Origin: Ptychodera flava
Taxonomy: Eukaryota; Hemichordata; Enteropneusta; Ptychoderidae
Reading direction: 5' to 3'
NCBI RefSeq assembly: GCF_041260155.1
Contig: NC_091933.1
Location: 8,148,501-8,212,500 of the forward strand
Length of the DNA stretch: 64,000 nucleotides
The translations under genes were made by a program, and so were the position numbers. This document shows, in pieces, positions 91 through 64,000 of this stretch. The notes beneath the pieces were generated by a model. That model saw only the letters and a program-made list of their open reading frames with translations, did not search any database and had not been told where the DNA came from. Numbering within the stretch: position 1 is the stretch's first letter; each line of letters opens with the position of its first letter.

Positions 91-533
91 AGGATGAGTA
101 ATAGACACAAAATTAATCCTTGATTTGTATGTTTGGGCTTCTGAACGTCAAAATGATCTATAACGGGAGGAATAAATATCCGTAAGAATAAACTGCGTAT
201 TATCAACTGAAGCTACACCAACCAAGGGAGTTTGTTTTTGGCGTATTTTCAACTATCCGATCAAGTTTAGAACAAAAACGTGGACTATTTTTCGATATAT
301 TTCTCATACTCCAGTTAATACTTGACTACAGTCGGCACTTAGCGAGTCAATTTACTCCCTTAGCTTACCATGACGGGCGAGAATTCAAGGTAGATTAACA
401 CCTTTAAGTTTTTGAGACTTTCACGTGAAGTTTCTACTTTCCATCAAAGTAAGAAAATCGCAACACTGTGGAAAACGTGACATTGTCTTCGTGATATATA
501 GTACTTCAGTAACATAAAATATTCTTTTACATA

Positions 534-1008
534 CAGTGGATTTCAAAATAGCTTGGAATTACAACGTGCTTGGATGGTTAGAAAAAGTCTCTGGCGATAG
601 AAAATAACGTCAACTGCAAAGCGTTCTCCTTCGCTTAAATTTTGCAACAATTTAACACAATACGACTTTCACTGTGTTACAGTCAACATCATCAGTGTTG
701 CTGCACTCCCATTGAAAAACTCACTCGTACACTGACTGCTTGGACATAATTATTTTGCCTTTACCACATTTCCCGTCAATGAAACTGCACAGAACGCTAC
801 GATATTTTTTTTCGGTACAGTGTGTACAGGTTGGTACAACAATTGGTATTTCATACACTGAACGTGTTCTGTACGTGAGTTAAATCGTTGCAAAACTATC
901 ACAGTAGAACGTTTGTAATGAATGCAGTTGACGCTATTTTCTGTCGCCAGAAACGTTTCTCTAATCACCAAAGCACGTTGTAATTCCAAGCTATTTTGAA
1001 ATCCACTG
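534..1008. mobile_element. Tc1/mariner-type MITE, 475 bp
   Basis: The ends are inverted repeats: the first ~38 bp, starting CAGTGGATTTCAAAATAG, are matched almost perfectly by the reverse complement of the last ~38 bp. Weaker pairing continues for about 100 bp on each side. A TA dinucleotide flanks each end (532-533 and 1009-1010), as expected of a Tc1/mariner target-site duplication, and the CAGTG start is common in that superfamily. There is no transposase frame, so it would depend on an element elsewhere. The arms have diverged by several percent, so it is not very recent. Confidence 0.8.
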
Positions 1009-1010
1009 TA

Positions 1011-3760
1011 AGTGCCTCGTCTTTGTTTCCTTATGTGTGTATTGTACAGATTAGAAAAAAAAACATCAGAAGTAAACCCGCTATGTGCAATTCATATTTA
1101 ATTCTGATATTTTATTGAGTCAATTTCGTGCCCTTTGTAAGGTATATTTACTTTCTATGGAGGTAGTCGCTGTTGCAAGGCTAGCTTACCGACATGTCAA
1201 TATGGTATAGATCATAATGGAATATGAATACCCTTTCAAGACACGAAAGATCGTGTAACTTTCAAAAACCTTAGTATTGTAATTTAGTCATGGTCTTTAC
1301 ACATTTAATAAATAAATGCTTATCTCGTATGACTATTTGTCTCGTATTAAAATCTGAATCAACTATACACCCAAATGCATTCAAACGACATATATAATCC
1401 ACTTATAAAGAATGACAAAATGGATGCTTTGAGCAGAAGTTAAAAGTCTCAGTGATCGCAAGATGTAACCTATGCACTTACAAAACTAACTGTAGTTATC
1501 ATCTGATTATCACAAGACTTGAGTGGGAAGAGGCGTACATATAGTTTACCGACAAACCACATTACATTTACAATTACATGGAAAACAATCTAGTAAATAT
1601 GTTCATTGATAATAGCTTGAAATGCTTTTGCAGTACCCGATAATCATCAATGACAGTAGATAGCTAGCTAGATAAATAGATTATAATCATCATGACAGTG
1701 TGACAATTATCATGACAATATGTGATAATCATCATGGCAATAGGTGATAACCATCATGAAATTATCTGAAAATTGTTAAGAAAAGGTGTGATAATCTTTA
1801 TCTTGATTTCTGTAATTTGTAGCGTAAGAAATACAAAACTGATGAAGTACTTAATTCAAGGAAATAAGAGGACAGAGCACAATGGGACAATCTCATTCGT
1901 AGTATCGCCTGACTCCATTTATCAGTTATGGTTTTGATTCAATCCCCCCTCCCCAATTTCTGATTTCAATGAATGCATTATCACACTGCCCTCTCAAAAA
2001 GGATATTAAATATTCGTAAACAAAACAATTCACCCAGTAGAGCTTTTAAAGCATGGAAGGACGTCCATCATTACTGGCAGTATTATAACACTTTCTTGCT
2101 GAAGCTCTCTACAGTGCTCTGACAATGAACAACAATAGTGTTTACGAAAGCTTTGGAAAGGCATTTAAATCTAAAGTGTAACATATATTCCGATTTTACT
2201 TCCTCACTGGGAATATCACGCCATATAAACTTAGCGACATAATGAAGATGAAAAAACTGCACAAACGACTATCTAAAATGTAACAGGATCTGTAAGTCAT
2301 TTTTTCGCTCTTGTAATGCTTTTGAAGCTAATATTGTAATTAACGTCTCATTGAAATAAGGGCTAAAGAAACGTTATCATTTAAATTGTGCTACAAAACC
2401 GATTCTCATCATCGGTAAAAACAAATCGTCCAGAAATGATTTGCATATACGTGAGACGACAAGGTGCAGGTCGTGCGAGCGTACGTGTGTACGTGTACGG
2501 GTACGGCGCTGCGCGCGCGTTTTTCCGTGTGAGCAAGGAAAAATGCGGTCGATGTAACAGCTTGCATTTACGTTAATGAAGCCAAAGTCCGACCAAGATC
2601 TGGTGAGGTAGCTTATTCAATACGTTCTGTCGTTGACATTTCAAAGGGAACGTCATTCAGTTATCATGCAATTTTCTTGTACATCTGTCAACATCAAAGT
2701 TCGTATTGTCATATAAGCTTAGTTTCTGTAGACTATCAATTCAGAAGTACCGAGTGTACCCGTGGTTAGAGCAACATGATTTCCTTCGTGTAAGGTGACA
2801 ATTTTTTGACTCTCGGATTTTGCATGGGCAGTCAAGGTTGATCATTGAAAGTTACTTGTTACCATAACGAAATGGTTCATATTGCTAATGGAAAAGCGCG
2901 ACACTGTACGTGCTGGACATAATAAAGAGAAGTGGCAGAGAATGCCTTGCGGTAGGGCATGCAATACTGATCACAACATCACTAGAAGGCAATCTAGGTT
3001 ATTCACTTCACAGCGATGCGGTGGCAAAAATCCATAGTAAAATTTTGACCTCGTCTTTTTCCATACAAACTATTCCACTTCCTTGCTATTACCGAATACA
3101 GAAATATGACAGCGTGGAACGTCGTACGCATTGGCTAAATTATGAAGAACTCGTGTATCAGTGATAGCGATCTGGGAGTTATGGTCAATCAACTACTTGA
3201 TTAATCAATATTGCTGGTGCGACCCGCCAAATTCCCATTTGTATATATTATTTTTCAATGAAGTATTTTATCAACGTCCGATGTGAAATTTGTGACTGAG
3301 TAGAGACGTCTCCAGGTTGAGAAATATAACTAACGTTCGTCGACGTTTTCGCTAAATAGCTTCTTGTCACTGCCATTGTAAGATCGTGAAGAATACTGGA
3401 AAACTATGCTGCGCGTTACGTCTTTTACCTTATGAGCTGCTAACGAGTACTTTGATTTGGGCGATTAAGGCAAGCGTTGATGATCGGTTGAACAAATTAA
3501 TGAAGGGTAATATGGATGGCAATTAACAGATATGGACCGTATATAATAGGCACACACTCGACACAGTTAAGGCTTGTAGTATGATAAAAGTTTAATACGT
3601 GACATTTATTTATTATTTATTTATTCATAACTTTTAGACGAATAATGCCTGCAGTACCCGGTGGTTCGACTGAAAAATTAGGGAGATTGTTCTAAAAAGA
3701 GTCAGTCCAACTGCAAACACAGAAGCAACACGTACAGTGCGGGAACACATCAGGATCACG
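1011..3760. other. intergenic, no gene recognised
   Basis: I see no exon with coherent coding character on either strand. The stretch holds a loose ~25-bp repeat around a GATAATCATCATG-like core at about 1640-1790. At about 2466-2522 there is a run of alternating purine-pyrimidine CG/TG/AC steps that could favour Z-DNA. The short open frames at 2388-2576 and 2910-3164 have no recognisable motif. Confidence 0.6.
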
Positions 3761-4215
3761 CATAGATAATTTTATAAAGGAGGCAGTTTAACCAGTACTC
3801 TTGTCTTCTAACGTTCTTTATTTAAAATGTACCGACGTTTCGCCAACACACAAGTTGCCTTCTTCAGGTTCAAACAGCTTACTGAACTTTAATTTTTAGT
3901 CACAGCGCTTTTCAATGTTTTTAAATCACAAGTGATTTTTAATTTCGTTTCTTACTACTATAGGTTTTGTTTTTTCGCTCACTGTAGTTCCAGTTTTTAT
4001 AAGTATTGTAATTTTCATTTGATTTCGATTTTATCCTCAGTTTACCTTGTACCGGGCTGATTTTTACTTTTGTATGTGCTCACTTTTATTTGTCAGCTTT
4101 TACCCTGATGAAGAAGGCAACTTGTGTGTTGCCGAAACGTCGGTGTATTCTAAATAAAGATTATTAGAAGACTAAGAGTACTGGTTGAACTGCCTCCTTA
4201 ATAAAATTATCTATG
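3761..4215. repeat. foldback element with ~110-bp inverted arms
   Basis: The left arm (3761 to about 3873) and the right arm (about 4103 to 4215) are reverse complements with roughly 90% identity. Both begin and end with CATAGATAATTTTAT or its complement. A ~230-bp T-rich middle separates them. Each arm carries the hairpin motif GGCAAC...GTTGCC followed by GAAACGTCGG, which I recall as common in invertebrate retroelement-related repeats. No coding capacity and no clear target duplication are visible. It abuts a LINE scrap on its right. Confidence 0.7.
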
Positions 4216-12633: not shown

Positions 12634-13559
12634 TGTGGACGTTATACACAAACTTGATGCCGCTTATCATACTTATGTTTGAGGTAAACGCAGGTCATTC
12701 ATAAGTGTTATACTTGTTCAAATTCAGACTAATCAGCTTTGTTATTTGGCCTACACATAGTGAATCTTACATAGATATGTCACTCATAAACCTTCCAGCA
12801 TGACGAAATTTAGTATGACCATTAATTCATTTTCACGATCGTTTCATTGATCGTGTCTAAAACCGGGGTCGAATATATTCATGGTCACCCATTCATTCAC
12901 TATCTTTCGACATGTCAAACAATATAAATAGTATCTCGCATCAAACAAAATTCACGAAAAATGGCCGACTTTGTCCCCTTAAACTTTCTTCATGAGCAAA
13001 AATAAGTATATCAAATGTACCTTAAAAGTGTGATCAAATCCACTTTATTCACTTTTGTTCATAGCCTTATTACAAAAGGTTGTTCAATGTGTAAATGAGC
13101 TAATTATGGTATGTCATACCCCTAAACTTCGAGAATGACTTAAATTAGTACAAGTGTCGTTCTCACTGCAACCTTTTCGCTGGCCCAGCACCGCCCCTCA
13201 TCCGATTCCGACTTATAAAATACATAAAAAGTATTCCATATTTTCTTGATAGGTCATATATAGCGATCGAGACATTGTCCCTTTAAAAAAATTGTAAAAC
13301 TTCTTTTTAAATATGGTTTCCTGTGAACAGTAATGAATACGTGTAATTACTATATCAAAGCTATTTGTCAAAAGTGAATCAAGCGAATTTTATCAAACTT
13401 CTAAGGTACAAAAGTTATACTAACATTACGTTATACTGCAAGTTCATGGGCATGAAATATAGGAGGATTTGATCAGATTTCTAAGGTATATATCAAAGAT
13501 CAATACTGTAAATTTGAACTAGTACAACGTTGATGGATGTTTGATTGATTGATTGATGG
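12634..13559. other. non-coding, nothing recognised
   Basis: Neither strand shows an exon, RNA gene or clear repeat boundary. A GATT repeat of four units lies near 13538. Confidence 0.5.
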
Positions 13560-21028: not shown

Positions 21029-21080
21029 GTAAGTGTGAATAAAATTATTCCTATAAAACAACCCCATGATATTTTTTTTA

Positions 21081-22322
21081 ATTCTGGACCTGTCCACCTC
21101 AATAATTGAGTCTTCTCTGTAACATTTTCCGCGCAATGTTTAACAGCCCCGTTATGATAGTCATGGTAACAAGAACACAAAGTAAGGATTGAAGGAAAAC
21201 GGGTAAGAGTGTTGACTGTTAACGTCTATTATATTCCAATCCCTGCTTCCTTCGCATTGAAAAAGTCGAGCTGAACCAGTGACTGACCACAAATAGACAG
21301 TAATAGTTTTTGGACATGCCCTTGAATATGAATAATAATGTTAACAACTCACAGTATCGTAACTTTACAGCTTAAACGTACATTGTGATTTGTATGAAGA
21401 TCATTATCAATCATGAAAGTAAAATGGAGCGCTTGTTGACCGAGTTTACGCTTTTTTCAACAAAAAAATCATCCGGATTTGCAAAATTTATACAGCACGC
21501 GTGACAGTGCACTACTCACTGAGCTCGCATATAGAGCAGCACGTACTGTTCAGTGAGTACAACATATCTCTAATGCAAGTTCTGGGGCCCCGTTGTCTTT
21601 TGCGTGGAAAATTTTCGTAATTTTGACGGTTTTCTTGGATTCATTGGAAATCTCTAGGATGTTCAGTGCGTCTTGCATTTCATTAGCCTACCAGCACGCG
21701 GAATTCTGGACCTGTCCACCTCAATAATTGAGTCTTCTCTGTACCATTTTCCGCGCAATGTTTAACAGCCCCGTTATGATAGTCATGGTAACAAGAACAC
21801 AAAGTAAGGATTGAAGGAAAACGGGTAAGAGTGTTGACTGTTAACGTCTATTATATTCCAATTCCCTGTCCTTCGCATTGAAAAGTCGAGCTGAACCAGT
21901 GACTGACCACAAATAGACAGTAATAGTTTTTGGACATGCCCTTGAATATGAATAATAATGTTAACAACTCACAGTATCGTAACTTTACAGCTTTAAACGT
22001 ACATTGTGATTTGTATGAAGATCATTATCAATCATGAAAGTAAAATGGAGCGCTTGTTGACCGAGTTTACGCTTTTTTCAACAAAAAAATCATCCGGATT
22101 TGCAAAATTTATACAGCACGCGTGACAGTGCACTTCTCACTGAGCTCGCATATAGAGCAGCACGTACTGTTCAGTGAGTACAACATATCTCTAATGCAAG
22201 TTCTGGGGCCCCGTTGTCTTTTGCGTGGAAAATTTTCGTAATTTTGACGGTTTTCTTGGATTCATTGGAAATCTCTAGGATGTTCAGTGCGTCTTGCATT
22301 TCATTAGCCTACCAGCACGCGG
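21081..22322. repeat. 622-bp tandem duplication in plexin intron
   Basis: Copy 1 (21081-21702) and copy 2 (21703-22322) are nearly identical, with about a handful of substitutions and single-base indels. The unit has no open frame of note. The duplication is recent, or it is an artefact of haplotype merging. Confidence 0.9.
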
Positions 22323-22473
22323 ACTGCAAACAAACTATTTTATCTAAGCGCCTAATGCATTAATAAGCAGCCGTTCGCAAGTGTTGTTTGTAATTTATCC
22401 TCGAATTCCGGTAAGGTCTGCACTAACCACAATACTTATGGCAACGTCTTACTTGTCAACTTTAGTTCTTTAG

Positions 22474-32440: not shown

Positions 32441-35400
32441 TTAGACATCTAAAGAAAAAAAAAAGATACAACGAAAGCATCTACTCCAGTGATGAACCCT
32501 CATTAATGAATTTTGAAAAAGAAAATTGCGCAATTGAGATTTGAACTGCGATAGTCTTTCAATACTTCGGATTGAAATAGGAATATTATTCCAAATCGTT
32601 GTGGCTCGATAAATGAACGATCTCTGTCCAGTAGCTGTTTTGAAAATTGGAGCGTATAAATTCCTGTTACTAGAACTACGGGTAGTAATATTACTCACGT
32701 CAGAGATATAACGGAACTGGTTTAAGTAATCAGGTGCAAGCCCATTCAAGATTTTAAAGGTCATTACAGCAATGAAATAATCAATTCGAAAGTCAATGGG
32801 TAGCCAAAGAAGGCGAGAGAAAAGAGTACGTGTAGACTGTAATGTCAACACCTAAAATAACCCTGGCCGCTCTCTTTTGAAGCCTGTAAATCTTTGTAAA
32901 TTACTCTTTGTGGTGTTTCCCCATACAGTATAGCAATAATCGAAAACAGAAAGAAAAGTGGCATTGTAAACTAAAATAAGGACACTATAAGGAGTTAAAG
33001 GACGCAGCCTTTGCAAGACTCCTATTCTCATAGATAATTTCTTACACAACTTATTTACATGATTATCCCAACTTAGAGTACTGTCAATCTCAATACCGAG
33101 AAGGTTGTGACTGAAAACATTTGAAATCTCACAGTTGTTTATACATACATTAATTGTTACATTTGACTCTTTTAAATTTTTAACCTTCGGGTTTGACGCT
33201 ACAATCATACTCTTTGTCTTTGTGGTATTGATGGACATCGCATTGTTGTTAACCCAGGTAGAGATAGGTAGCACATCTTCCTGAATTGTTTTTCAACTTC
33301 ATCAATACCATCCCCAGATACAAATAAAGTTTGATCATCAGCAAACATGTCTAAGTTACACATATTTAGACATAAAGGAAGGTCGTTTATGAAAATCAGA
33401 AATAAAAGTGGTCCTAAAATGGAGCCTTGAGGTACTCCACATACAATTGGTAAAGTATATGATTTCTCCCCTAAGTAGCTGGTAAACTGACTCCTATCAG
33501 TGAGGTACGATCGAAACCAGCTTAAAGAGGAACCAGTGACACCATAAATAGAAAGCTTTCTAATGAGAATTTGATGATCAACAAGATCGAAAGCTTTACA
33601 TAGATCTAAAAACATTAAACCATTATACAAACCCAGATCAATATTATTTAAAAGTTGATCTGTAAGCTTAAGAAGTGCAGTGTGGCATGAATGAAATTGT
33701 CTAAAACCAGACTGCGAGCTGATCAAAAGATTGTTTGTTTGAAGATAATCATAGAAACTCTTATAAACATGCCTCTCAAGAATCTTCGATAAAGCAGGCA
33801 GAATGGGCCTGTAGTTATTTAAAGTTGTTTTGACCCACTCTTGTGAACTGGTACAACTTTAGCACATTTAAAACATTTCGAAAACGAACCATTTACAATT
33901 GACAAATTAAATATTTTCGTGACAGAATCAGCAATGCTGGCAGCACCAACTTGGAGAAGTTTCGGGGAAATGTTGTCATTTCCCTCGGTCTTATTGATAT
34001 CTAATGAAGAAAGTTGATCCATAACAAAACTACAGGAAATAGGTGGGATTTGAAAAGTGACAGGGGCAGGATCCATTTGTTCAGTTACCCATACTTTAAT
34101 CAGACTAAAGTCTGGCTCAGTGTGAACACTTTGGCGATAACTATTTACAATACTTGTAAAGTGGGTATTGAACGCATTTGCGATGGCCTTATTGTCAGAG
34201 AGCAATACATCATTGTGAACAATACGAGGACTTTGGGATGGGGAGTTTCCTTTGGACAGTATTTCATTAACAGCTAGTACGCCACACAACCGAGGAATTC
34301 CTGGAATTTTCTGTAAAAAACATTTTTATAATGACGACGTTTTTCGGAGGCAATGGTGTGAACAACCTTATTTCTATGAGATTGTAAAGGAGCCAGTCAT
34401 CAGGCGAGTTTGAACGGGAAGCCTTGACAAGATTGAAGTCCCTAGCGTGCATGAGATCTAAAATATGTGTAGAGAACCATGGTGGCTGTTTTAAGCCTTT
34501 TAACTCTTCTGACATTGTAGGGGGCGTGGTTGTTACAAACAGAATTAAACGAGTTAATCCACTCATTAAAAGTTTCGTTGATGTCATTCATATTGTCAAC
34601 ATAAGGCCAGGAGACTGAGTTCAAATTATCTGAAACGAAATTACGATATTGTCTGTGCTTAACATATATATGATCACCAGTACCACCACAATTACTGTTA
34701 TGGCGTTTAATTACACAGATAGGGTAATGGTCAGAGAGACCTACTTCAGGTACACATACAGAAGAAACATGAAGGGGAATAATAGTTTCACATAGATATG
34801 GTCTAAAAGAGAACCAGAAACCGGCCGGGTAGGACTATTCACAAGTTGTTCAAAGTTCAATGACATCATACATCTGTATAAATAGTGATTCTCCCCATTC
34901 GATGCAAGAAGGTTGATATTAAAATCCCCCAGTATAATCATTTCCTTATTTTCAAGTTGAGCCGACTCAATAACAGATTCGATTTTGCGGTCAACACAAA
35001 GGAATGAACTTGGTGGTCGATAAATATCCATTACCAGGAGAGGGCGAGCATGATATATGATTACCTCGAGGATAATCGCTTCTACATCATTGGATTCAAG
35101 ATCAAATCTCCGTATAAAATGCACATCAGAGGCTACGTAAGCTACAAGACCGCCGCCCATACCAGTAGGACGGTCCTTTCTACATTTCTACGTAATTAGA
35201 AATTGCAAAGTCGGAGTCTTGGTTCAAGTCACTTAAAAAAGTTTCGCTTAAAATAAGAATATCAAAAGGTCTCTTATTATGACAAAGTAAAAGGCGTAGT
35301 TCATCAATCTTGTTGGTAATGTGTTGTATGTTCCAATGAGCAATGCGCAAACCTTTACCTGTGGTGACATTGTGAAAGGGTAGATATAACTTGTCCAGAG

Positions 35401-35451
35401 ACGTATTACGCGACGACGGTTGAATATTCGTGACTTCAGATTGGACGGCAC
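32441..35451 (-). pseudogene. LINE ORF2: APE endonuclease and reverse transcriptase, frameshifted
   Basis: From the 5' side (35451 downwards) the endonuclease reads LRIAHWNIQHITNKIDELRL and FDILILSETFLSDLNQDSDF. After a frame change it continues with GGGLVAYV, IYRPPSS, LGDFNINLL and GSLLDHIYV, which supply the catalytic Asn, Asp and His positions. The RT follows with SGFRQFHSCHTALL, FLDLCKAFDLVDHQIL, GVPQGSILGPLLFLIFINDL and the catalytic box FADDQTL (Phe in place of the usual Tyr). The thumb region ends with LLWLPIDFRIDYFI near 32800. Frame changes fall near 35160, 34740, 34590-34270, 33820, 33205-33275 and 32852, so no full protein is made. The order of parts is typical of CR1/L2 relatives. 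Confidence 0.85.
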
Positions 35452-35470
35452 ACTCTTCGTGGCCCGATTC

Positions 35471-37017
35471 CTATGCTGTAGGACAATCCTTTGCCTTGTG
35501 ACCGGGATAACCGCAGGACCAGCAAGTGATTGAAATCCCGTGTCTGCATACTCTGCTCACATGACCCTCTTCGCAACAATTGTGACACTTGACGTTAGAA
35601 TGGAAACGTCGCTGATCTGTTTCCCGACGCAGTGGGCACCTGGTTCTAACATGTCCTGGAGTACCACAGTCGAAACATCTAACAGTCGGTTGATTACTGT
35701 TTCGCTGGCGGGGTTCGTACCTGTCTTTGTTGGCACCGATGTTGTTCCTATGATGATAACTTACGGGTTGCTGATTACCTGGGTGTGGTCTCGGAGGCCT
35801 TGTTCGATTACTGACATTGGTCATTCTTGAGTATTCATTGCATTGATTGAATGATTTACCGGGGATAAACATCTGGCCGAGTTGTGCATTCTCAAGCATT
35901 TTCCGTATTCCTTTGACACTCAAGTGGATGCCATCACGATACAGTAAAGATCTGTCTACAGAATTGTTACGAAATTTGAATGTACAGTCATTATCGATGA
36001 ATGTAACACCTTCGCGTTGGCAGAGCAGTGCCAGGTCATGATTGACTTCATCGATTTTCCCTTGTCATCTTGAGTATCAGTTCGTAGCGGAATGCTGACA
36101 ACTGTGACTCGATCATTACATAATGGTTTGGCGAGTGTTAATAAGTTGCGATATTATCGCTTCTGTTGTGCTCATATTACTTAGATCATTGGTTCCAACC
36201 TGAAGAATCATTTCGTTGTAAACAGAATCCTGGTTTGCAGTTGACAGATGGCTGGAGATGTCATTGATTTTCGCTCCCGGGATAGAAAGTACCGTAGCAT
36301 TTGCAGATTTAGGTGATATGTAGCGAATTAAAGAGTCTCCTATCAGAATTGTCTGTTTTTGTCTCGCTTGTTGATGTTGTGGAGGGAGCACGGTATTTGC
36401 GGGAATTCATTGAAATCAGTTTGTGTTTCTGTTATGATTTTCCTTGGCTACTGATTGAACATAGTTTCCGCTGTATATACTCTGTCTAAAAGTTCGGCAT
36501 TTGCTTCACGTATTGAGATGATTTCCTCTCCTAGAGTGTTGTTCTCTTGAACAGTAGCTGCATACATATCACGTAGATAAGCGGTGTTGTCTTGAATGTC
36601 AGCGATTTTAGTTCTCAGATCAGCGGTGGTTTTGGGCAGATTTCTGCAGTCGAGACATGGCCAAAAGAAACGATTTGCCTCGTCACTATCGATGTCTAGA
36701 CAATCAAGATGAAACCAGTCATAACAGAGGCTACATCGAATCATTTCGCCTTTATCAGATCTGTCCATTTTGCAGTTTTCCATGCAAAAGGTCTCAGTAT
36801 TGACTTTAACGGATTCAGTCTGTTTCTTTTCACTAAGACGTTTTTTCTTGGATTTACGGGATTTTTTCCCGTTGTTTGACTGATTTGATTGTTCGACGAA
36901 ACTTGTGCGGATTCTATGGTGGTGGTATCGCAGATTCTCAGCGGACATGTTCGAGTCAATGGTACTGCTGCTGAAACTTTTTACTAGAGACTTGATTGGA
37001 GATGTAATAAAGGTCAA
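35471..37017 (-). pseudogene. LINE ORF1: PHD finger, coiled coil, SGNH esterase, three CCHC knuckles
   Basis: The N-terminal part (37017-36448) is Lys/Ser-rich and then has a PHD finger: CMENC, CSLC, HLDC and CLDC pairs with W-F between. Next comes a probable coiled coil (TKIADIQDNTAYLRDMYAAT). The middle part (36391-36116) is an SGNH/GDSL-type esterase with IGDSLIRYISPK, a GAKINDI block and QVGTNDLSN, where Ser, Gly and Asn are the expected active-site residues. The last part (35923-35471) starts with the esterase's final helix (SVKGIRKML) and ends with three zinc knuckles: CFDCGTPGHVRTRC, CHNCCEEGHVSRVC and CWSCGYPGHKAKDC. Two breaks separate these parts. Such ORF1 proteins bind the element's RNA. 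Confidence 0.85.
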
Positions 37018-37227
37018 GAGTCAAGAGTCAAGACTCTGTATACAGAGTCAATGGAGTTATTTAACACAAGTTAAACTCGGTAACTGTATGCTGCTGACCC
37101 TCCCGATGTCATACCTATTTCGTTTTCTAAGTCATTGAAAAAAATGTTAGTTTAAAATGTTCTGAGGATTGGTTCTCGAAAAAGTGAACCCATTGACGGT
37201 TTTCAGGTGGCTATTTACTGGAAGAAT

Positions 37228-38745: not shown

Positions 38746-39703
38746 GGTCCACTCCAAAGCGTTCCCGTATGTACACCTCTACTCAACAGGTCTCGCCACT
38801 TCACTCACGTTTACAGGAATTTACAGTCCTCATACCCACGCAAATCATATTTCCACCCATTTCATTTGAAACGTGCACAGGCTCATACTCGAGCGAATTA
38901 AGCTATGATGAAAGCGTGAGAAGCGCATATTCATCAAAACTTCGATTCACATGTCTGTTTACATTTTAAAGATGGATATGATTCAAAAGTACCCTTGATT
39001 GACGCCTTGACAAATCTTAAAGTGACATTCAAGCGAACAAGTCAGTAATTAGAATTCAGAGTACATGTATTTCTTTCGGAGTCCTTGTGTCGATTCTTCC
39101 TCACATCGTTTCTTTGGATAATGAATGACAAGCCCCGGATAGCGGAGCTGGTTATTAGAGTCTATATCAATGTTCCTCTCGTCGCTTCCATATCCTGACA
39201 TATCGACGAAGGTAAACTAATGGGAACGGGAGCCTGCGGCAATACGACTCGCTTCTTGTTCTTGAGCGATGGTTGTGAACATTTTAGGGAAAAAAATAAT
39301 CATCAGCTACATTTAGAGGAAGCAGTCGTCGGAACTACGCATGTTCGACTTTCTTGTTTATTGAATGCATTATATATGGATGGATCTATCATGTCAACAT
39401 AGCAGCAACATTTGAATTTAATGATGTACATTATAACAAGAATGTTTTAACTTTCAGCAATTGATTTGAGTTGGCGGCACCTGGTCTTACTTCTACAGCC
39501 CAATGGGTAATGAGGAAAGCATACACAAAAACAAATACACGTATCGTCATACGAACTACTGTAATGGTGAAACTTGAAAAGGCATTTGCTCGTAAATTTG
39601 ATTTAACTATCGAATTACTCGGACTGTGAAACAAAACATAAACCCAATGGGTTTATGATAAATCTAAAACAGTACTGCTATGGTGATAATACGCGAAACA
39701 GGT
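38746..39703. other. non-coding, nothing recognised
   Basis: Short open frames occur on both strands but without motif or splice context that would support a gene. Confidence 0.45.
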
Positions 39704-39918
39704 ATAGAATAATATGACAGAACTCCATGACCTTGCCTTAACATTTGTGTGGTACTGAAGTTATTTTCACGAGTGATGCGTGTATCCTGCGGCCGTATTT
39801 TCACGAGCGAAGCGAGTGAAAATACAGCAAGGATACACCGCATCACAAGTGAAAATAACTTTCGTACCACACAAACGTCAAGGCAAGGTCATGGAGTTCT
39901 GTTATTATTACATATGTT
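39704..39918. repeat. long palindromic element 1
   Basis: Arms of roughly 85-95 bp pair almost completely around a short centre near 39795-39830. The left end reads ATAGAATAATATGACAGAAC and the right end GTTCTGTTATTATTACATAT. Element 2 at 41400 has the same two ends, but the palindromic core between them differs. No transposase is encoded. The frames across it on both strands mirror the symmetry and are not genes. Confidence 0.8.
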
Positions 39919-40154
39919 CCCAAATTACACACGTAATTCTTTGGGTCGGCGGATGGATATTACTTAACCTGTAGAGTTATTCGCCACTCAGCTGGTACAC
40001 TCAAACAACGTCACTCACACAAATGACACTACAAAATGTTTTCAGTGAAACCGTTCGTATTTTATATCATTATAATCGAAATTCATGTACACTGGAAACA
40101 AGAACAATGAGTAAAACTTCAAAACAGAAAGTCTAATTATGTTATCGGTTGAAT

Positions 40155-40940
40155 CATTCAATCTGAGTCGGAATCGGAGTAGATCACTGCAGGTCGGCGA
40201 CGTTTGGAGGCGATGCAACGTGGTATACAGGTGAAGACTTCAGATAGGGAATTATTTCCTGTGATGTTGAAGGTAAAGTTGAACGATCCACCACTGATTT
40301 GTGCATTTGAGAACATCCCTGGTAGTTGCGGAAACTGATGGAGGGCATTTTGATGCATTGACGGCAAGGGACCTCGAATAGCATACGAAGGACCGGCCAC
40401 CGGTCGCGGTGTATGTTCGGCCGGCATCAGGCTTGTACTTCCGGTTGCAGTCGGTCGTGGATGCAGGTTGTGTACCGGCGAGTATGTTGCTCATCTGACG
40501 CGCTGCTGGTCTGCACTGGCCACAGAATAACGGTTGGGTTTTTGTGCCCGCTTAGCTTAGTTGTGAAGCCACAGTTGGTGGAACGCCGGCATCGAGCAGT
40601 CGTTGTACGCAGGCTTCACGAGCGCTGTGATTACTCAATTTGTCAGTGAGTCCCGTCGCTAAGAAAAAGATCTAACTCAGGTGGTGGAATTTTTAGAACT
40701 TCGCAAGTTTCTTCTGTCATGGTGTTAATATAAGCCATTCCTTCAAAACTGCCACTTCGCGTCTTGTTTTCATTTCCGTGTTTTGTTTTTTCTGCGCTCC
40801 AACTTGGACGTCGACATCAGCTATGTTGACACGGGCACATCTCCCTGTGCTGGCAGTCCCAGACGGCACTGTCAACGACGCTACCGTCGCGTTATCCTTA
40901 AAAAATACTTGTTTCTCCGTGTCACAAGGTGTTTCCATTG
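40155..40940 (-). mobile_element. Crypton-like tyrosine-recombinase remnant, internally deleted
   Basis: On the minus strand the 40940-40660 part begins with an acidic leader and then QKKQNTEMKTRREVAVLKEW, followed further on by KIPPPELDLFLSDG. This is the N-terminal SAM-like helix of Crypton/DUF3504 proteins. The next readable part (about 40640-40430) has NHSAREACVQRLLDAGVPPT, with the H-x-x-R of tyrosine recombinases, and then KRAQKPNRYSVASADQQRVR with a candidate catalytic Tyr. The 3' part ends with a SGGSFNFTFNITG motif and an acidic YSDSDSD tail, as in related animal proteins. The middle of the enzyme is missing and the frame shifts, so it is a dead DNA transposon or a domesticated-gene relic. 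Family by eye. Confidence 0.6.
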
Positions 40941-41399
40941 TGTCCCCGCAATAAAATTCAATTTCAAAATGATCAACATATTCGCAATTTTGCCAGTCGT
41001 AATGCTGGTCCTCAATCGAGCTGGTTTCAATATACAGCAGACGACAATTTTTACCAAAGTATAAAGTAGTCCGCCAAATTTGATACTCATTTGCATAATT
41101 TAGCGTGAAAATACCGAAAAATTATTGAATGGACACGTGACTAATTTGCATAGTTATTTGATGGCTTATGACATTCTCCTTCAATCTGTTAGTACGTTTT
41201 TAGCTGTTTGACAAGGAGTTTATTGTTAACATTTTGTATTATTATGATAAAATTAATAAAGTGTAGGAAGCAACTGTGTGGTCAATATGATATGCAATTT
41301 ATCCTGCCAAAAACCGAATTTTGAAAAGGAACTATTTTTCTCATATGCACATTACTGAGATTCAATACCAACTTTATGTGGTGGGCACAATAGAATAAT

Positions 41400-41582
41400 A
41401 TGACAGAACCCCATGACCTGTGAGTGCAAGCGCGCCGTACAAGCGGTATTTGCACGAGTGCTGCGGTGTATTCGGCGGCGAGTGAAACGACAGCCGAATA
41501 CACTACAGCACTCGTGCAAATACCGCTAGTACGGCGCGCTGCACTCACAGGCCATGGGGTTCTGTTATTATTACATATGTTC
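41400..41582. repeat. long palindromic element 2
   Basis: Arms of about 80 bp pair around 41480. The ends match element 1 (left ATAGAATAATATGACAGAAC; right TTCTGTTATTATTACATATG). The core instead carries GTGAGTGCA, GCGCGCCGTAC and GGTATTTGCACGAGTGCTGC with its complement. It is CpG-rich. Confidence 0.85.
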
Positions 41583-41689
41583 TATCTTTATTTGCATCAT
41601 TTATCGAGAGAATCGACGATTAATCGTGCGGACTACTTGTCTGTCGAAGCTTCAGGGCGACCCTGCGGAGTTATATAACATTGACATAC

Positions 41690-43450
41690 TGTAATGAGGC
41701 ATCGAATCAGCTTTCACTTTTCATTGGTCAGCGCCGTCACACCCTCTATTTTGATTGGCTAACTATTGTTTACTTGTTTATCAAGGATGACGTAAGAGGA
41801 ATGTCGGAGGGCTCGAACTCTGCTTACGATCGCTCACACATACATACGTAGCTAGTCTGGCAGAGACCCACTCTCGAACCAGAGTTCTTATCGCGCGTAC
41901 GCTAATAAGTATCTCTGGCACAGGCAGATTAATATTCATGTGACCCCGAGGTCATTGGAACGTCAATGAACTACTTTTTTACCTGTCGCGCACTGTAGCT
42001 ATGGTATTGCCACAGTAACGCGCGGCAGTTCGAATTCGTTCCAGCACGCGCACAGTTATCTACAAATTCAAATAAAAACGCCGTTTTCTCTTTTCAGTGT
42101 TTATTTACTGTTCTTTCTTTAGTATTAATATATACGGCCTTGGTAAATAACTTAGAGTGCAGGAGGGGTCACAATTCAAGAAAATACATCATCAGCAGAC
42201 GATACAGGGGATTCGCCCGAAGGTCAGAACAGGTCAAAGCCTTGTTTCTTCCCGAATAATTACACTATTTAAAAGTAGTTCCAATGGTAATTATGTTTTT
42301 CCGGTTCGTGTTTTGCTATAAACTTATAGTAATTAGTTTTCAAACCAGTGAACATTTTTGCATCGAGGATGGACTTTGTATTTTCGGCGAGTTCGTCTCG
42401 GTGTCGGTTTTCGAGCTGACTTCCGGTTTGCGGATCGGTATGTGGTGATTTACCACGTAAACAAGACACCTGTGGCAGAGTCATTTCGGCGACAGCGCAA
42501 GGATTGTGGGAAAAAGACACGCCGATAAGAACTCTGCGCTGGAGATTGGCAGAGACCTTCGCTGATCACTGCGTCTCACGTGACTAGCTAGACGCAGCAC
42601 GAAGTAAGACGCAGATACCGGCAAACCGCCATTTTGAAATGAGACAGTTTTTGGTCTCCCGGAAGTTGTTGATTGCGCATGCCCGCACATAGTGCATCAT
42701 TTTTTATCGCGTGCTTTTAGTCTAGTCTGGTACCTGCCAATATTTCAAAACTTGTAAAGAATGTTAATTAAATCCTCGATTAAATTCTAGCCACGTTCGC
42801 TGTGATAATTTTAGCTTTACTTCGAAGTAAAATTGAAAGCCAATGACAGCGCCCCATGATTCAACCAATCAGATTTCGTAATTCGATACGTGGCGGTTTC
42901 CCGTTACCTGCCTCTTTGTGCTTGTCACTGAGGCGGGGACCAGCCAACGGTGGAGATTGGCAGAGACCGTGCGATTCGCGTTCTTCCCTGTTGGAACACG
43001 CGCGCGCCCTTCAGAGACGCGACGCGAATCCCAGGGTCTGGACGTTCTTGCAAGCGACCGGTCGGATTTCTGCCTGATCCGGGTACTTTACAGAACTCCA
43101 CACATCCGTCACACAAACAAAAAATGGCAAGTACCATAGCCAAATAAAATTAAAAATGATAAATAAAAACATACAGCGTATATAAGTCTACCAGCTACTA
43201 GTATATATTCTCTCCGCCCAGTTAGATAGGTGTTTCTTTTGACATCACTACCCTTATGAATATTCATATCCTTGCAAGAACTGACAGTCGCTGTGTCTGG
43301 CAGCGCGTGCTCACAGCTGCACAGCCTTCGAATGCAGACCCATCGCGGCGCGCACAAAACAAGGCACAGCGACTGTGGAGAGTCTAATACGTAGCCACAG
43401 ATAGCCAAACGAAGAGAACTTTGAACATGGAACGCTTTTGATTTTTTCAC
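41690..43450. other. CpG-rich region with CCAAT motifs, possible promoter
   Basis: CpG dinucleotides are far denser here than in the surrounding AT-rich DNA. ATTGG/CCAAT words occur near 41726, 41755, 42838 and 42865. TTGGCAGAGACC recurs at 42548 and 42956 in direct order and as a near copy at 41861. An inverted repeat around CAGTCGCTGTG/CACAGCGACTG spans 43279-43385. No first exon was recognised on either strand, so the promoter reading is tentative. The GC content could also come from old transposons. Confidence 0.3.
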
Positions 43451-44069
43451 ATTTTGAGCTTGAAATTCTTCTAAATGATCGATACAAATAACAGTTCGAA
43501 GATTTTTACGGGAAATTTAAGAGTAAGATACGGCAAACGTAACTTGTCGAACGATCAAATTTCAGTGTTTACCGTGCACAGCGATCACTGTTATCATTAG
43601 CGTGTAGGACACACAAGCACAGAGTAAACTGCATGCAAAAGTGACTTTCGATTGTAAACAGGGAATGTCCGGTGAGAAAACTACTGGCAAAAACGTCTCT
43701 GAAAATGTTAACTGTTTAATTGGCTCCGCTGCGTCCGCAGTTACGTGTGTTTCGATGTATGTGATGGCCGCCGTGGTATGGCGGCCACCGTGTATCCATG
43801 GAACTAGAAACGGACGTCGCCAGTTGTCAATGTTTTTGCTTCGCTGACAAACAAACTGCTCTTCCGGATAGTAAAAATCATCCTCACACTATAATAAGTA
43901 CAGACAATTTTCTTTGTCGTAGAGTTTCATCGGTAATGTCATGCATTTTACTATAACTAGCATCGAACAAAGTGAAATGAAATCTTGTAGACGACATTTT
44001 TTGTGTTTACAAACAAAAATAGTTCCGGGTCAAAATTGGTAAATACTCATTAACATAAAGGAATGGCAT

Positions 44070-44185
44070 AATGTTTTTGGTATTGCACTGCAGTGCAAAT
44101 ACCGGTAGTACGCGCGCGCTTCGATGCGAATAAACTGTGGTACATATGTAATAATACGCAGTACATATGTAATAATACGTTTTCT
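44070..44185. repeat. partial relative of the palindromic elements
   Basis: The words TGCAAATACCGGTAGTACG and two copies of TACATATGTAATAATACG match the core and right end of element 2. The second arm is missing. Confidence 0.5.
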
Positions 44186-44635
44186 TTGCAGATTTACTGT
44201 GAGCATATCTTGATGTACCTAAATCTTCATCTATATTTAAGATACTTTAGGACTTTTGATTGCCATTCCATAGGATTTTTCAAACATTACATGATCTCTT
44301 GTTGAAACTGGAAACAAGCGTAAGTGCGACTGGACGGCGTAGCGTCGATGACATCATTGAGACACCGGGAACTGTCGATCGATACCGTAGGCGACTGTAC
44401 AGTTACCGGTACCTCTCGACGCACAAGAACTGGTCGAACGATATTGAACGCAGGTTTTATCTGTACATCGTGTAATGAGGAAACGAGCATTATTAACGGC
44501 AGAGGGCGGAAGAGAAGATTTTTCATCGAATTTAATTCGCGGCCTTAAACGACGTTAGCGATGCATACAACATGAAACTTTTGGGTAGCCCTCCCGCCAT
44601 AATAAAAATGTTGTGAACTATCACTTGGTGTGTGT
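44186..44635. other. non-coding or unrecognised
   Basis: Open frames at 44260-44475 and 44324-44548 overlap in different phases and have no family resemblance that I can name. Confidence 0.4.
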
Positions 44636-54171: not shown

Positions 54172-56019
54172 AGGGACATTATTTGTATCTTTTGACCTTA
54201 TATTGTTGCAAACGAGCAGTTGATAATGTTGTTCGACTTACTGAAAGATGTCTAAAAAACGGTCGACCATAGACAACTTCCATCCCGTTTGCGTACACTG
54301 TATAGAAAAACCTTGGGTCAGGGGTTAATGGTGGGCTACTTTTAACCTCAGAGTTGGCAAGGTGACCTAGTACCTGCGATCAGACCACACTGCTAACAGC
54401 TATCTGGGCCGCTGTAAGCATCCGCGTTTAAAAAAAATAAACCACGCGAAGTGAAAGTCGAAAGCGCAGTATTGCAATTTCGGGATTCCCTATACTGATG
54501 CCGTTTGCTCAGTTACATTTTGACGGTCAGTTTTCATGGAGATCTTGACGGCCAATCCTGCTCTTAGATACACTATTCTTTGCTGCTAGAGAGCACATTT
54601 TATAATGGGCATTTCAAATGCCTACAAGCTGCAAGAAGTCGATGACAAGGCCTATAGTGGTGGATTTTTTTCGTCCCGTTTGTTCCTCCATATGTATATA
54701 TAGACTTGCCCAAAGCCTGTGGGCATAGAAATGTGAAAACATAGTAAAATGAAGGGATAAACTTCAGTAGACAGTCATGTTATTGTCGAGGTGATCGCGA
54801 AATTGAAGCAAATGAATGTACTTTGACAACTGACACGTACATCATATGTCACCGTCTGCGTGGCAGGGCTGTGCAAAATCGCTGGCAGCACCTCGGTTGC
54901 GGCGTGCAGTTTCTCCACCAAAAACAACCCATTTTTAATCCCAAGCTTGCATTGAGTTTCGTTTTTGAGCACGGCACCCACCTCTTCTGGGTACGGTTAG
55001 CCCTGCGTACAGGTCTGTGTGTTCCCGGCGTTATACGGCGTGGAGGCCGTATAACGCCGGGAACACACAGACCTGTACGCACGGCTTAGGTACACGATGT
55101 GCTCAGCTGAGCTTCAATACTTACGCAAAGCCCACTTTTGGGAGTGGGTCGGAGACACGGAGGCCGTAAGCGACGTATAGGGTCTTGGCAACTGTCATTG
55201 CGATGTACTCACTTTTGGTTCGAAATGCGATTCAACTGATACAAATAATTACACAATGCACAGAGAATAACAACATTCAAACAGATCTTGTGTGTCGAGA
55301 GGTGACTCCACTCGCGAGCAGTACATCCATGACAGCACTCGCCCGGTGCGGTGTCACGATGTCACCGATGCTACACTATGCACTGTTCAGTCCGAGTGCG
55401 ATGTTTCCAAGTTCAACAAGTGATCATGTCATGTTTGTAAAACGAATCAACGTAATGGCAAGAAAATGCCCTAAAAATCTTGAAAGTTGACGAACATTTG
55501 CCAACGATCAAATGCACAGAAAATGCATTACTCTGCACCTGTTTCACTATCACCACAGCAATCTGACATCATTTTAGTTTTACCATTGACCCAATTGCGT
55601 CTATGGTTTTATTTGTTTCACAGTCCGTGTCATCGATACTAAAATCAAACTTACAAGCAAATGCCCTGCTTAGTTTCACTATTTGACAGTAGATTGTGAG
55701 ACGTGCATTTGTTTATGCGCGTGTGCTTCTCGATATCCATTGTGCTGAAGTTGGTGTGTAGGTCACAGGCCGTTCACATTCCAGCTGTACTTTGATGGTT
55801 GACGTATGCGTAGTAATATTGGTCATGTGCTTGGGTTCAATAATGGCGGTTGGTTCAAATCGCGCGGACGCCCTTACCAACATTGAACCTTGCCGTAGGT
55901 GGTTTTACATATCCTTGAAGCCGTCCATAGTCACAATTTAGGTCTCCTATTGATTTGACCAGGGATTTCAGTCATCGAAAAAATGAAAAAAAAAGTCAAA
56001 AGATACAAATAATGTCCCT
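54172..56019. mobile_element. TTAA-flanked DNA transposon derivative, 1848 bp
   Basis: Left end AGGGACATTATTTGTATCTT and the reverse complement of the right end are identical for about 25 bp, up to a TTTTGAC block. TTAA lies outside both ends (54168-54171 and 56020-56023). TTAA targets with an AGGG start suggest Kolobok; piggyBac is the alternative. Inside there are no recognisable transposase motifs; frames such as 55185-55490 (+) are unidentified. So it is a non-autonomous derivative or contains captured DNA. A perfect 35-bp inverted repeat lies at its centre. Confidence 0.7.
55004..55080. repeat. perfect 35-bp inverted repeat with 7-bp spacer
   Basis: 55004-55038 (starting GCGTACAGGTCTGTGTGTTC) is the exact reverse complement of 55046-55080. 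Imperfect pairing goes on for 10-15 bp outside. It is GC-rich in an AT-rich setting and sits near the middle of the 1.85-kb TTAA-flanked element. Confidence 0.95.
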
Positions 56020-63150: not shown

Positions 63151-64000
63151 ATCTCATCCCAGGCGGAAACCGCCATGAGATTCCATATTCAAACAGTTCT
63201 CATTTGCCTCGGTGTGTGTAAACACACCGTTTTTCAGCCTTCCAGTATATGGTTTTTGACGTCTGGTTTTGCTCTATTGTTCCTTCCTGGGAGCGTGAGT
63301 TACGGTATCATCTATTATTTCCTGTTTATTTCTCTTTTTTAGCAGTCAGTTTGACGGTAGTTTTTCAGGCCGTTTGAAGTACTGCTTTGAGTTTATGTAG
63401 CAAATGTGTGTTGCTATTGTTTGCTTTCCACGTTTTTGAATGCAGTGACGTGGTCAGTCTGCAGCTGTGCGAGCCAGTTTCTCGTACATTGTGTATTGTA
63501 CTTTATGGTATTTATCGCGCTGGTTTTTGTGTACCATAGGTTTACCGGTTTCTGCTTGTATCATGGACCTATGCGATGTTACTGCGAGTGACGGTTCTAA
63601 GGTTTGCGCTGCAGCTAGATGTAGGAAGATTATTCCTGCTGATGACAGCCATGACAAGTGTCTTGCATGTCGCAAGTGTTCAAAGGCTAAGCCTTGTGAT
63701 ATTTGCAAGGATTGGTCGGATGAACCATGGCGCATTTTTTACTAATCCTGAGTTGCTGCAAGGTAAACAAACTTCAAAAGGTAAGTCTCAGAAGGACAAG
63801 TCCAGGAAGTCGGCTAGTAGTGCAGCTGTCTATTTGCCCTTTGACGAGTCCTATGTTTCCAAGGACGAGATTGAGGGTATTCTGGACACTAGATTTGAGC
63901 AATTTTCGGAGAAGGTTTCTTCTTTGTTGGCTGGTTTTCTTGCTCAATCTCAAAGTGCTGATGTAACAGAGGGCAATCATGTGGAGCCACAACACCAGAA
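63151..64000 (+). mobile_element. 5' part of a DIRS-like or related retroelement, running off the right edge
   Basis: Two strong hairpins open the region: 63151-63181 (ATCTCAT...GGCGG/CCGCC...ATGAGAT) and 63210-63229 (CGGTGTGT/ACACACCG). From about 63560 a gag-like sequence begins: MDLCDVTASDGSKVC, then RKIIPADDSHDKC, CRKCSKAKPCDICKDW with paired CxxC motifs, and further on a Lys/Ser-rich and an amphipathic stretch up to the edge. Cysteine-pair segments of this type precede the RT in DIRS-group elements. The family call is by resemblance only. It does not read as one unbroken frame in view, so this copy is treated as a fossil; the rest lies outside the window. Confidence 0.4.

Follow-up and report, generated by a model that had tools for sequence, protein, structure and literature searches.

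Paired palindromes in an insertion with a broken tyrosine-recombinase gene: a candidate border module of a putative decayed Crypton-like transposon

Described systems and the locus in outline

According to the available text of the survey by Kojima and Jurka, most fungal Cryptons and those of oomycetes end in short direct repeats, whereas none are reported for animal Cryptons (PMC3212892). The same text describes Cryptons as thought to exit as circles and to re-enter elsewhere (PMC3212892). The locus to be compared with them lies in a window of 64 kb, the whole stretch of DNA that was analysed, where a repeat termed X is interrupted by an insertion of about 4.45 kb. A palindrome, E1, stands at the left edge of the insertion, a second, E2, inside it and a third relative, E3, at its right edge. 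As would suit a Crypton (CryptonA of animals), the insertion holds an apparent remnant of a tyrosine-recombinase gene. Unlike a Crypton, its recombinase gene is broken, and most of the insertion is bounded by a 15-nt inverted repeat (TATTATTACATATGT, 39903-39917 and 44163-44177), which is not expected of Cryptons. The short direct repeats at its borders may recall the fungal and oomycete elements as the available part of the survey describes them, whereas the animal elements are reported there without terminal repeats and the insertion has a hairpin of 193-216 bp and a 13-bp border sequence (PMC3212892). The excerpts of the matches listed from the open-licence PMC literature described no hairpin at a Crypton end. 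The available part of an amphioxus study of inverted repeats mentions a Ngaro-like element and palindromes, with no tie to the E element (PMC2632668), and literature texts containing GCGAAGCGAG seemed unrelated, among the matches listed, by their titles and the starts of their abstracts.

A single hairpin module, at the left border of a decayed tyrosine-recombinase (Crypton-like) DNA transposon, may have given rise to both E1 and E2 as diverged copies, a reading on which our confidence is evenly balanced. They are unlikely to be free-standing MITEs. What is new is the proposed placement of the hairpins within a decayed recombinase transposon.

Integron attC sites also have a variable palindrome between conserved ends, as E1 and E2 do, the core of the latter still being homologous. 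Unlike attC sites, which measure 57-141 bp, the E elements are longer and not bacterial, and their ends ACAGAAC/GTTCTGT fit RYYYAAC/GTTRRRY at 5 of 7 positions on each side. We consider it very unlikely that an animal tyrosine recombinase uses the hairpins as folded recombination sites in the manner of attC, recognising their conserved ends and a conserved unpaired TG on the folded single strand. The same low credence attaches to the rest of that reading, in which the core would matter only for forming a stem and the 13-bp border would be where units accumulate in tandem. Among long-inverted-repeat elements, foldback elements and MITEs resemble E1 and E2 as palindromes with conserved ends; the difference is that no target-site duplication common to E1 and E2 was found.

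A process described in yeast coding DNA and in RNA genes is also close to what is seen here: the available parts of two studies describe homogenisation of the arms of inverted repeats by template switching (PMC8604942, PMC8794818). As in the quasipalindrome correction described there, the arms of E1 and of E2 agree within the element over the other copy, and many changes are double; the E stem, at 67-77 bp, is unlike the stems of RNA genes and the short inverted repeats of yeast (PMC8604942, PMC8794818).

The palindromes and their cores

The 64-kb window contains no N, and its DNA looks animal-like. The two palindromes were delimited by repeat search, BLAST, folding and arm alignment. The first-pass annotation had reported both, with common left and right ends, and both exist, with extents mended to 39704..39919 for E1 and 41390..41582 for E2 (both plus strand). 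E1 is 216 bp and E2 193 bp, and both look non-coding. The stem arms of E1 are 67 nt long and 90% complementary, and those of E2 are 29 and 48 nt long with 93% and 94% complementarity. Folded as single-stranded DNA, E1 gives -78.7 kcal/mol (z -18.2) and E2 -94.7 kcal/mol (z -20.3), values equalled by 0 of 200 shuffles in each case, and an unpaired TG in the left arm is common to both folds. A window-wide BLAST for inverted repeats spanning less than 2.5 kb returned 8 pairs at E <=1e-3, and E1 and E2 tie for the top score.

The ends common to the two elements are nearly identical. Over the left 30 nt the identity is 97% and over the right 34 nt 94%; the outermost tips are identical throughout (13/13 left, 17/17 right), and the 16 columns of the inner end (ACAGAACYCCATGACC) agree at 15/16 on the left and 14/16 on the right. 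Terminal inverted repeats are present, ACAGAACYCCATG being found at both ends of E1 and of E2. The ends are more conserved than the core by Fisher tests of 3.0e-4 (left) and 1.3e-4 (right), which treat the columns as independent although they are not fully so.

Inverted repeats of about 50-140 bp are carried by three further elements of the window (529-1013, 3761-4215 and 13005-13421), which are probably ordinary MITEs. A further near-perfect palindrome (93%) lies at 54999-55086, and its sequence is unlike E1 and E2 by eye. An Rfam scan of the window gave 0 matches at the gathering threshold. Patterns of E1 and E2 had 0 matches in viral contigs and prokaryote genome contigs, a result with little bearing on an animal genome.

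The cores between these ends had been taken for different sequences, exchanged or extended by a hairpin-templated process. Alignments of the cores only, in the four pairings of arms, scored 18.0-23.0 against shuffle means of 8.2-9.6, and 0 of 1000 shuffles reached each score, which rules out that the cores of E1 and E2 are unrelated. The apex adds to this. E1 has an apical hairpin (39795..39825, plus strand; from repeat family D2 and the fold) with GCGAAGC at its tip, which we take to be the unusually stable DNA mini-hairpin of that sequence. An apical 17-nt piece of E2 is related to the second half of this hairpin (GCGAGTGAAAATACAGC versus GCGAGTGAAACGACAGC, 88%, family D17). The first 22 nt of the hairpin (39796-39817) match E1's own arm at 39762-39783 in 19 of 22 positions (86%, family D2), and it looks like a copy of that arm motif. 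The apex may thus differ because E2 lost part of an apical hairpin or because E1 gained one.

On these alignments the cores of E1 and E2 are homologous. It is extremely improbable that each element gained its core separately, through fold-back copying that placed unrelated sequence inside fixed ends, as the first-pass annotation had it. Compared on the same side, the cores of E1 and E2 are identical at only 39/63 and 35/61 positions, and the apical hairpin of E1 is not present in full in E2, as such an origin would have it; the significant homology of the arms and the common apex piece contradict it for E1 and E2. Exchange or renewal of the core is unsupported because the two cores are homologous, differing, in the two copies compared, by indels as well as point changes. 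For these two copies this leans towards descent of the cores from one ancestor, the outcome that the first-pass annotation had named as counting against renewal. The idea of an extended core fares somewhat better, given the resemblance of the E1 apical hairpin to its own arm.

The third relative had been proposed from the same first pass, and it is real but weak. It consists of a single arm related to E2 (44087..44126, plus strand; BLAST and profile), in which a 28-nt stretch resembles E2 (BLAST E 3.6e-4; profile E 0.071, under the inclusion threshold), followed by two copies of the tip sequence ACATATGTAATAATACG, so that the whole spans 44087-44179. No ACAGAACYCCATGACC end was matched in it at up to 3 mismatches, and it does not form a long hairpin (fold z -0.98, with 37 of 200 shuffles as good).

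The interrupted repeat, its borders and the recombinase gene

The left half of X lies at 39475..39716 (plus strand; BLAST of 39493-39713 to 55750-55527 on the minus strand, E 1.3e-24, and profile) and the right half at 44180..44560 (plus strand; BLAST of 44221-44316 to 55499-55402 on the minus strand, E 2.0e-9, and profile). An uninterrupted copy, a relative of the empty site, was found by BLAST and profile at 55100..55798 (minus strand); these outer limits are those of the stretch chosen, the BLAST relative being 55402-55750. The E-values of the profile hits at 39475-39716 and 44148-44560 are circular since the profile was built partly from these halves. Because X matches the left flank and then the right flank across the joint, it is interrupted from about 39717 to about 44170, the exact border being uncertain by about a dozen bases. 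When the joined flanks were aligned with X, one aligner placed an 11-nt gap at the joint, and the profile consensus of a second aligner has none there. The GC content of the window is mostly 34-41% but reaches 44% at 40001-44000. The near-perfect palindrome at 54999-55086 lies about 300 bp from the 55402 BLAST end of the uninterrupted copy.

The borders carry a 13-bp sequence, located by sequence and pattern scan and found four times on the plus strand: as ATAGAATAATATG at 39704..39716, again at 41390..41402, as ATGTAATAATACG at 44146..44158 and a fourth time at 44167..44179. A pattern drawn from these same four sites, ATRKAATAATAYG, occurs at 39704, 41390, 44146 and 44167 and nowhere else in the 64 kb on either strand with at most 1 mismatch; with two mismatches it occurs at 20 places, some of them in the right tips of E1 and E2, where it is inverted. 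The 13-nt left tip recurs without an E element at 44146 and 44167, in a related form (10/13), and stands where the insertion in X begins and ends. The direct border copies have the form AATAATAYG and agree at 8 of 9 positions (AATAATATG at 39708-39716 versus AATAATACG at 44171-44179). In an ungapped comparison by eye, GCAGAGTAATGCA of uninterrupted X stands opposite ATAGAATAATATG of the left border; 7 of 13 positions are equal and all 6 differences are transitions, so that a likeness to the border sequence may already have been present in the target site.

Further relations were considered and rejected. E2 does not lie inside a second copy of X, as its flanks beyond the tips match X at chance level (scores reached by 119, 479, 341 and 50 of 500 shuffles). 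The two units of the insertion have no homology beyond E either, two matches at E 0.029 being taken as chance. No homology was found between the right flanks of E1 and E2 beyond the tips (216 of 500 shuffles reach the score) or between the right flank of E1 and the region left of E3 (72 of 500).

These borders bear on whether E1 and E2 represent two subfamilies of ordinary MITEs, moved by a DDE transposase that reads the common ends, with the nearby recombinase unrelated, which we think fairly unlikely. Common ends with diverging interiors are a frequent behaviour of MITEs, palindromes of 216 and 193 bp with a non-coding look would suit them, and the window has the three other inverted-repeat elements mentioned above. 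Against this, no exact target-site duplication of at least 4 bp was found at an offset common to E1 and E2 (left -12 to +15, right -20 to +9), save ATATG within the tips; a 6-bp repeat, CTTTAT, does flank E2 at one offset, with no counterpart at E1. The recurrence of the left tip without E at the borders of the X interruption also argues against it.

Between E1 and E2 the insertion contains an apparent broken tyrosine-recombinase gene on the minus strand, 40791-40161. HxxR is a mark of tyrosine recombinases, and the block that carries it (LSNHSAREACVQRLLDAGVPPTVASQLS, 40555..40659, minus strand) resembles Pfam PF00589 at scores below the curated cut-off. Two further stretches on the minus strand are presumed parts of the gene, namely N-terminal blocks in two frames at 40652..40791 and a C-terminal block at 40161..40328 that ends in SDSDSD and then a stop. 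We assume that both belong to the same kind of recombinase as the HxxR block, and the C-terminal block is, to our eye, presumably Crypton-like. Along the minus strand KTRREVAVLKEWL lies in one frame, NTMTEETCEVLKIPPPELDLFLSD in another and ATGLTDKLSNHSAREACVQRLLDAGVPPTVASQLS, which contains HxxR, back in the first; GHKN follows in the second frame and the C-terminal SDSDSD block in the third. Since the N-terminal and HxxR blocks abut, the catalytic domain seems to have lost its central part.

The HxxR piece alone matched PF00589 with E 0.044 and 14.0 bits, below the curated cut-off of 27.1 bits, and when joined to GHKN across the frameshift it gave E 3.9e-5 and 23.9 bits, still below that cut-off. 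Pfam gave no match for the presumed N-terminal blocks, NCBIfam no family for either recombinase peptide, and a PDB sequence search with the recombinase peptide 6 weak matches, none of them named recombinase. In unit 2 (41403-44145) no recombinase block was found, the best chance match having E 0.7, and each of its ORFs of at least 90 codons (42269-42565, 43109-43516 and 43562-43888, all minus strand) matched 0 Pfam families.

Elsewhere in the window, Pfam found the reverse transcriptase of a non-LTR element (PF00078, E 5e-24) and a stretch of a secretin-type receptor (PF00002, E 1.4e-5). The former belongs to a non-LTR retrotransposon at 32441-37020 (minus strand) with PF00078 reverse transcriptase and zinc knuckles, its frame split across several ORFs; SGNH/GDSL matches there were weak and below the cut-off. 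A unit of about 622 bp is tandemly duplicated at 21080-22323, the copies being 98.9% identical. At the window edge a cysteine-rich ORF (63449-63745), with a Pfam match at chance level only, resembles, as we take it, the gag of DIRS elements.

Evolution of the arms and the proposed role of the hairpin

The four arms of the two cores were aligned in 60 ungapped columns, 17 further gapped columns being omitted from the counts. Of the columns, 31 are identical, 17 divide by element, 1 by side, none crosswise and 11 in other ways; in the tips 0 columns divide by element. Inside one element the core arms are identical at 61/72 and 55/63 positions (116/135 pooled), against 74/124 pooled when the same side is compared across elements (Fisher 2.5e-6, the pooled columns not being independent). 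When the tips are aligned with the TG bulge, a 2-nt indel and two substitutions separate their sides, and the contrast of tips with the rest has P 0.014, 0.0026 or 0.0006 with the indel omitted, taken as one column or taken as two columns. An alignment that ignores the bulge gives 7 side-specific columns in the tips and Fisher 1.2e-5; the weaker figures that allow for the bulge are preferred. The two arms of each core are thus more recently related to one another than to the arms of the other element, which does not hold for the tips.

This pattern fits homogenisation inside the hairpin, by the known template-switch process, better than exchange of the core. Of the hairpin-templated process proposed for the cores, the copying of arms within an element fits the joint change of the two arms, which is not seen in the tips; the exchange of cores is left without support. 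Arm-to-arm copying inside the hairpin would yield the pattern of the arms, and so would separate source copies whose pairing was selected. With only two full copies, a subfamily history is not separable from conversion.

The second of these, in which the elements have one origin and separate source copies and the arms were kept paired by selection for the folded single strand and not by template switching, is in our judgement unlikely. The strong fold and the same unpaired TG of the left arm are kept in both E1 and E2, as such selection would have it. It would also accommodate the 18 columns that changed on both arms (one of them in the inner end), for which clustering is not significant; the element-specific core changes form 7 adjacent pairs where 4.3 are expected (P 0.078). 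Against it, only 8 of the 18 double changes are transitions, and the other 10 are transversions, which are impossible via a G-T intermediate, though selection could still account for them.

Returning to the hairpin as a border module of a Crypton-like transposon, the recombinase would have moved the element in the way proposed for Cryptons (PMC3212892), using the 13-bp border sequence as the site of recombination, and two units, in tandem or nested, would have left four border copies and two hairpins. The tips and the ACAGAACYCCATG ends would be fixed because the recombinase or its partners would read them. The core would be read for its shape or not at all, and would drift accordingly in sequence. 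Within each lineage one arm would be copied from the other by a replication template switch in the hairpin, and the arms would so stay complementary. The hairpin would then form the end of the element, with proteins recognising its tips and arm-to-arm copying keeping its core paired. Counting against this reading are the element-specific changes without significant clustering, the Pfam scores below the cut-off, the lack of a recombinase block in unit 2 and the 15-nt inverted repeat; the hairpin and the border repeat would moreover be additions to what is published for animal Cryptons. Because the 64-kb window holds only two full copies, the insertion borders and the role of the hairpin are given as we infer them from those two.

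Should the hairpin be part of the recombinase element, it would give an animal Crypton-like transposon a terminal structure that does not appear in the available text of the main published survey (PMC3212892). If this is true, a terminal hairpin would aid in finding the borders of Crypton-like elements. Fixed tips together with arms that change in concert also provide a small natural example in which to study how the pairing of long stems is maintained in evolution.
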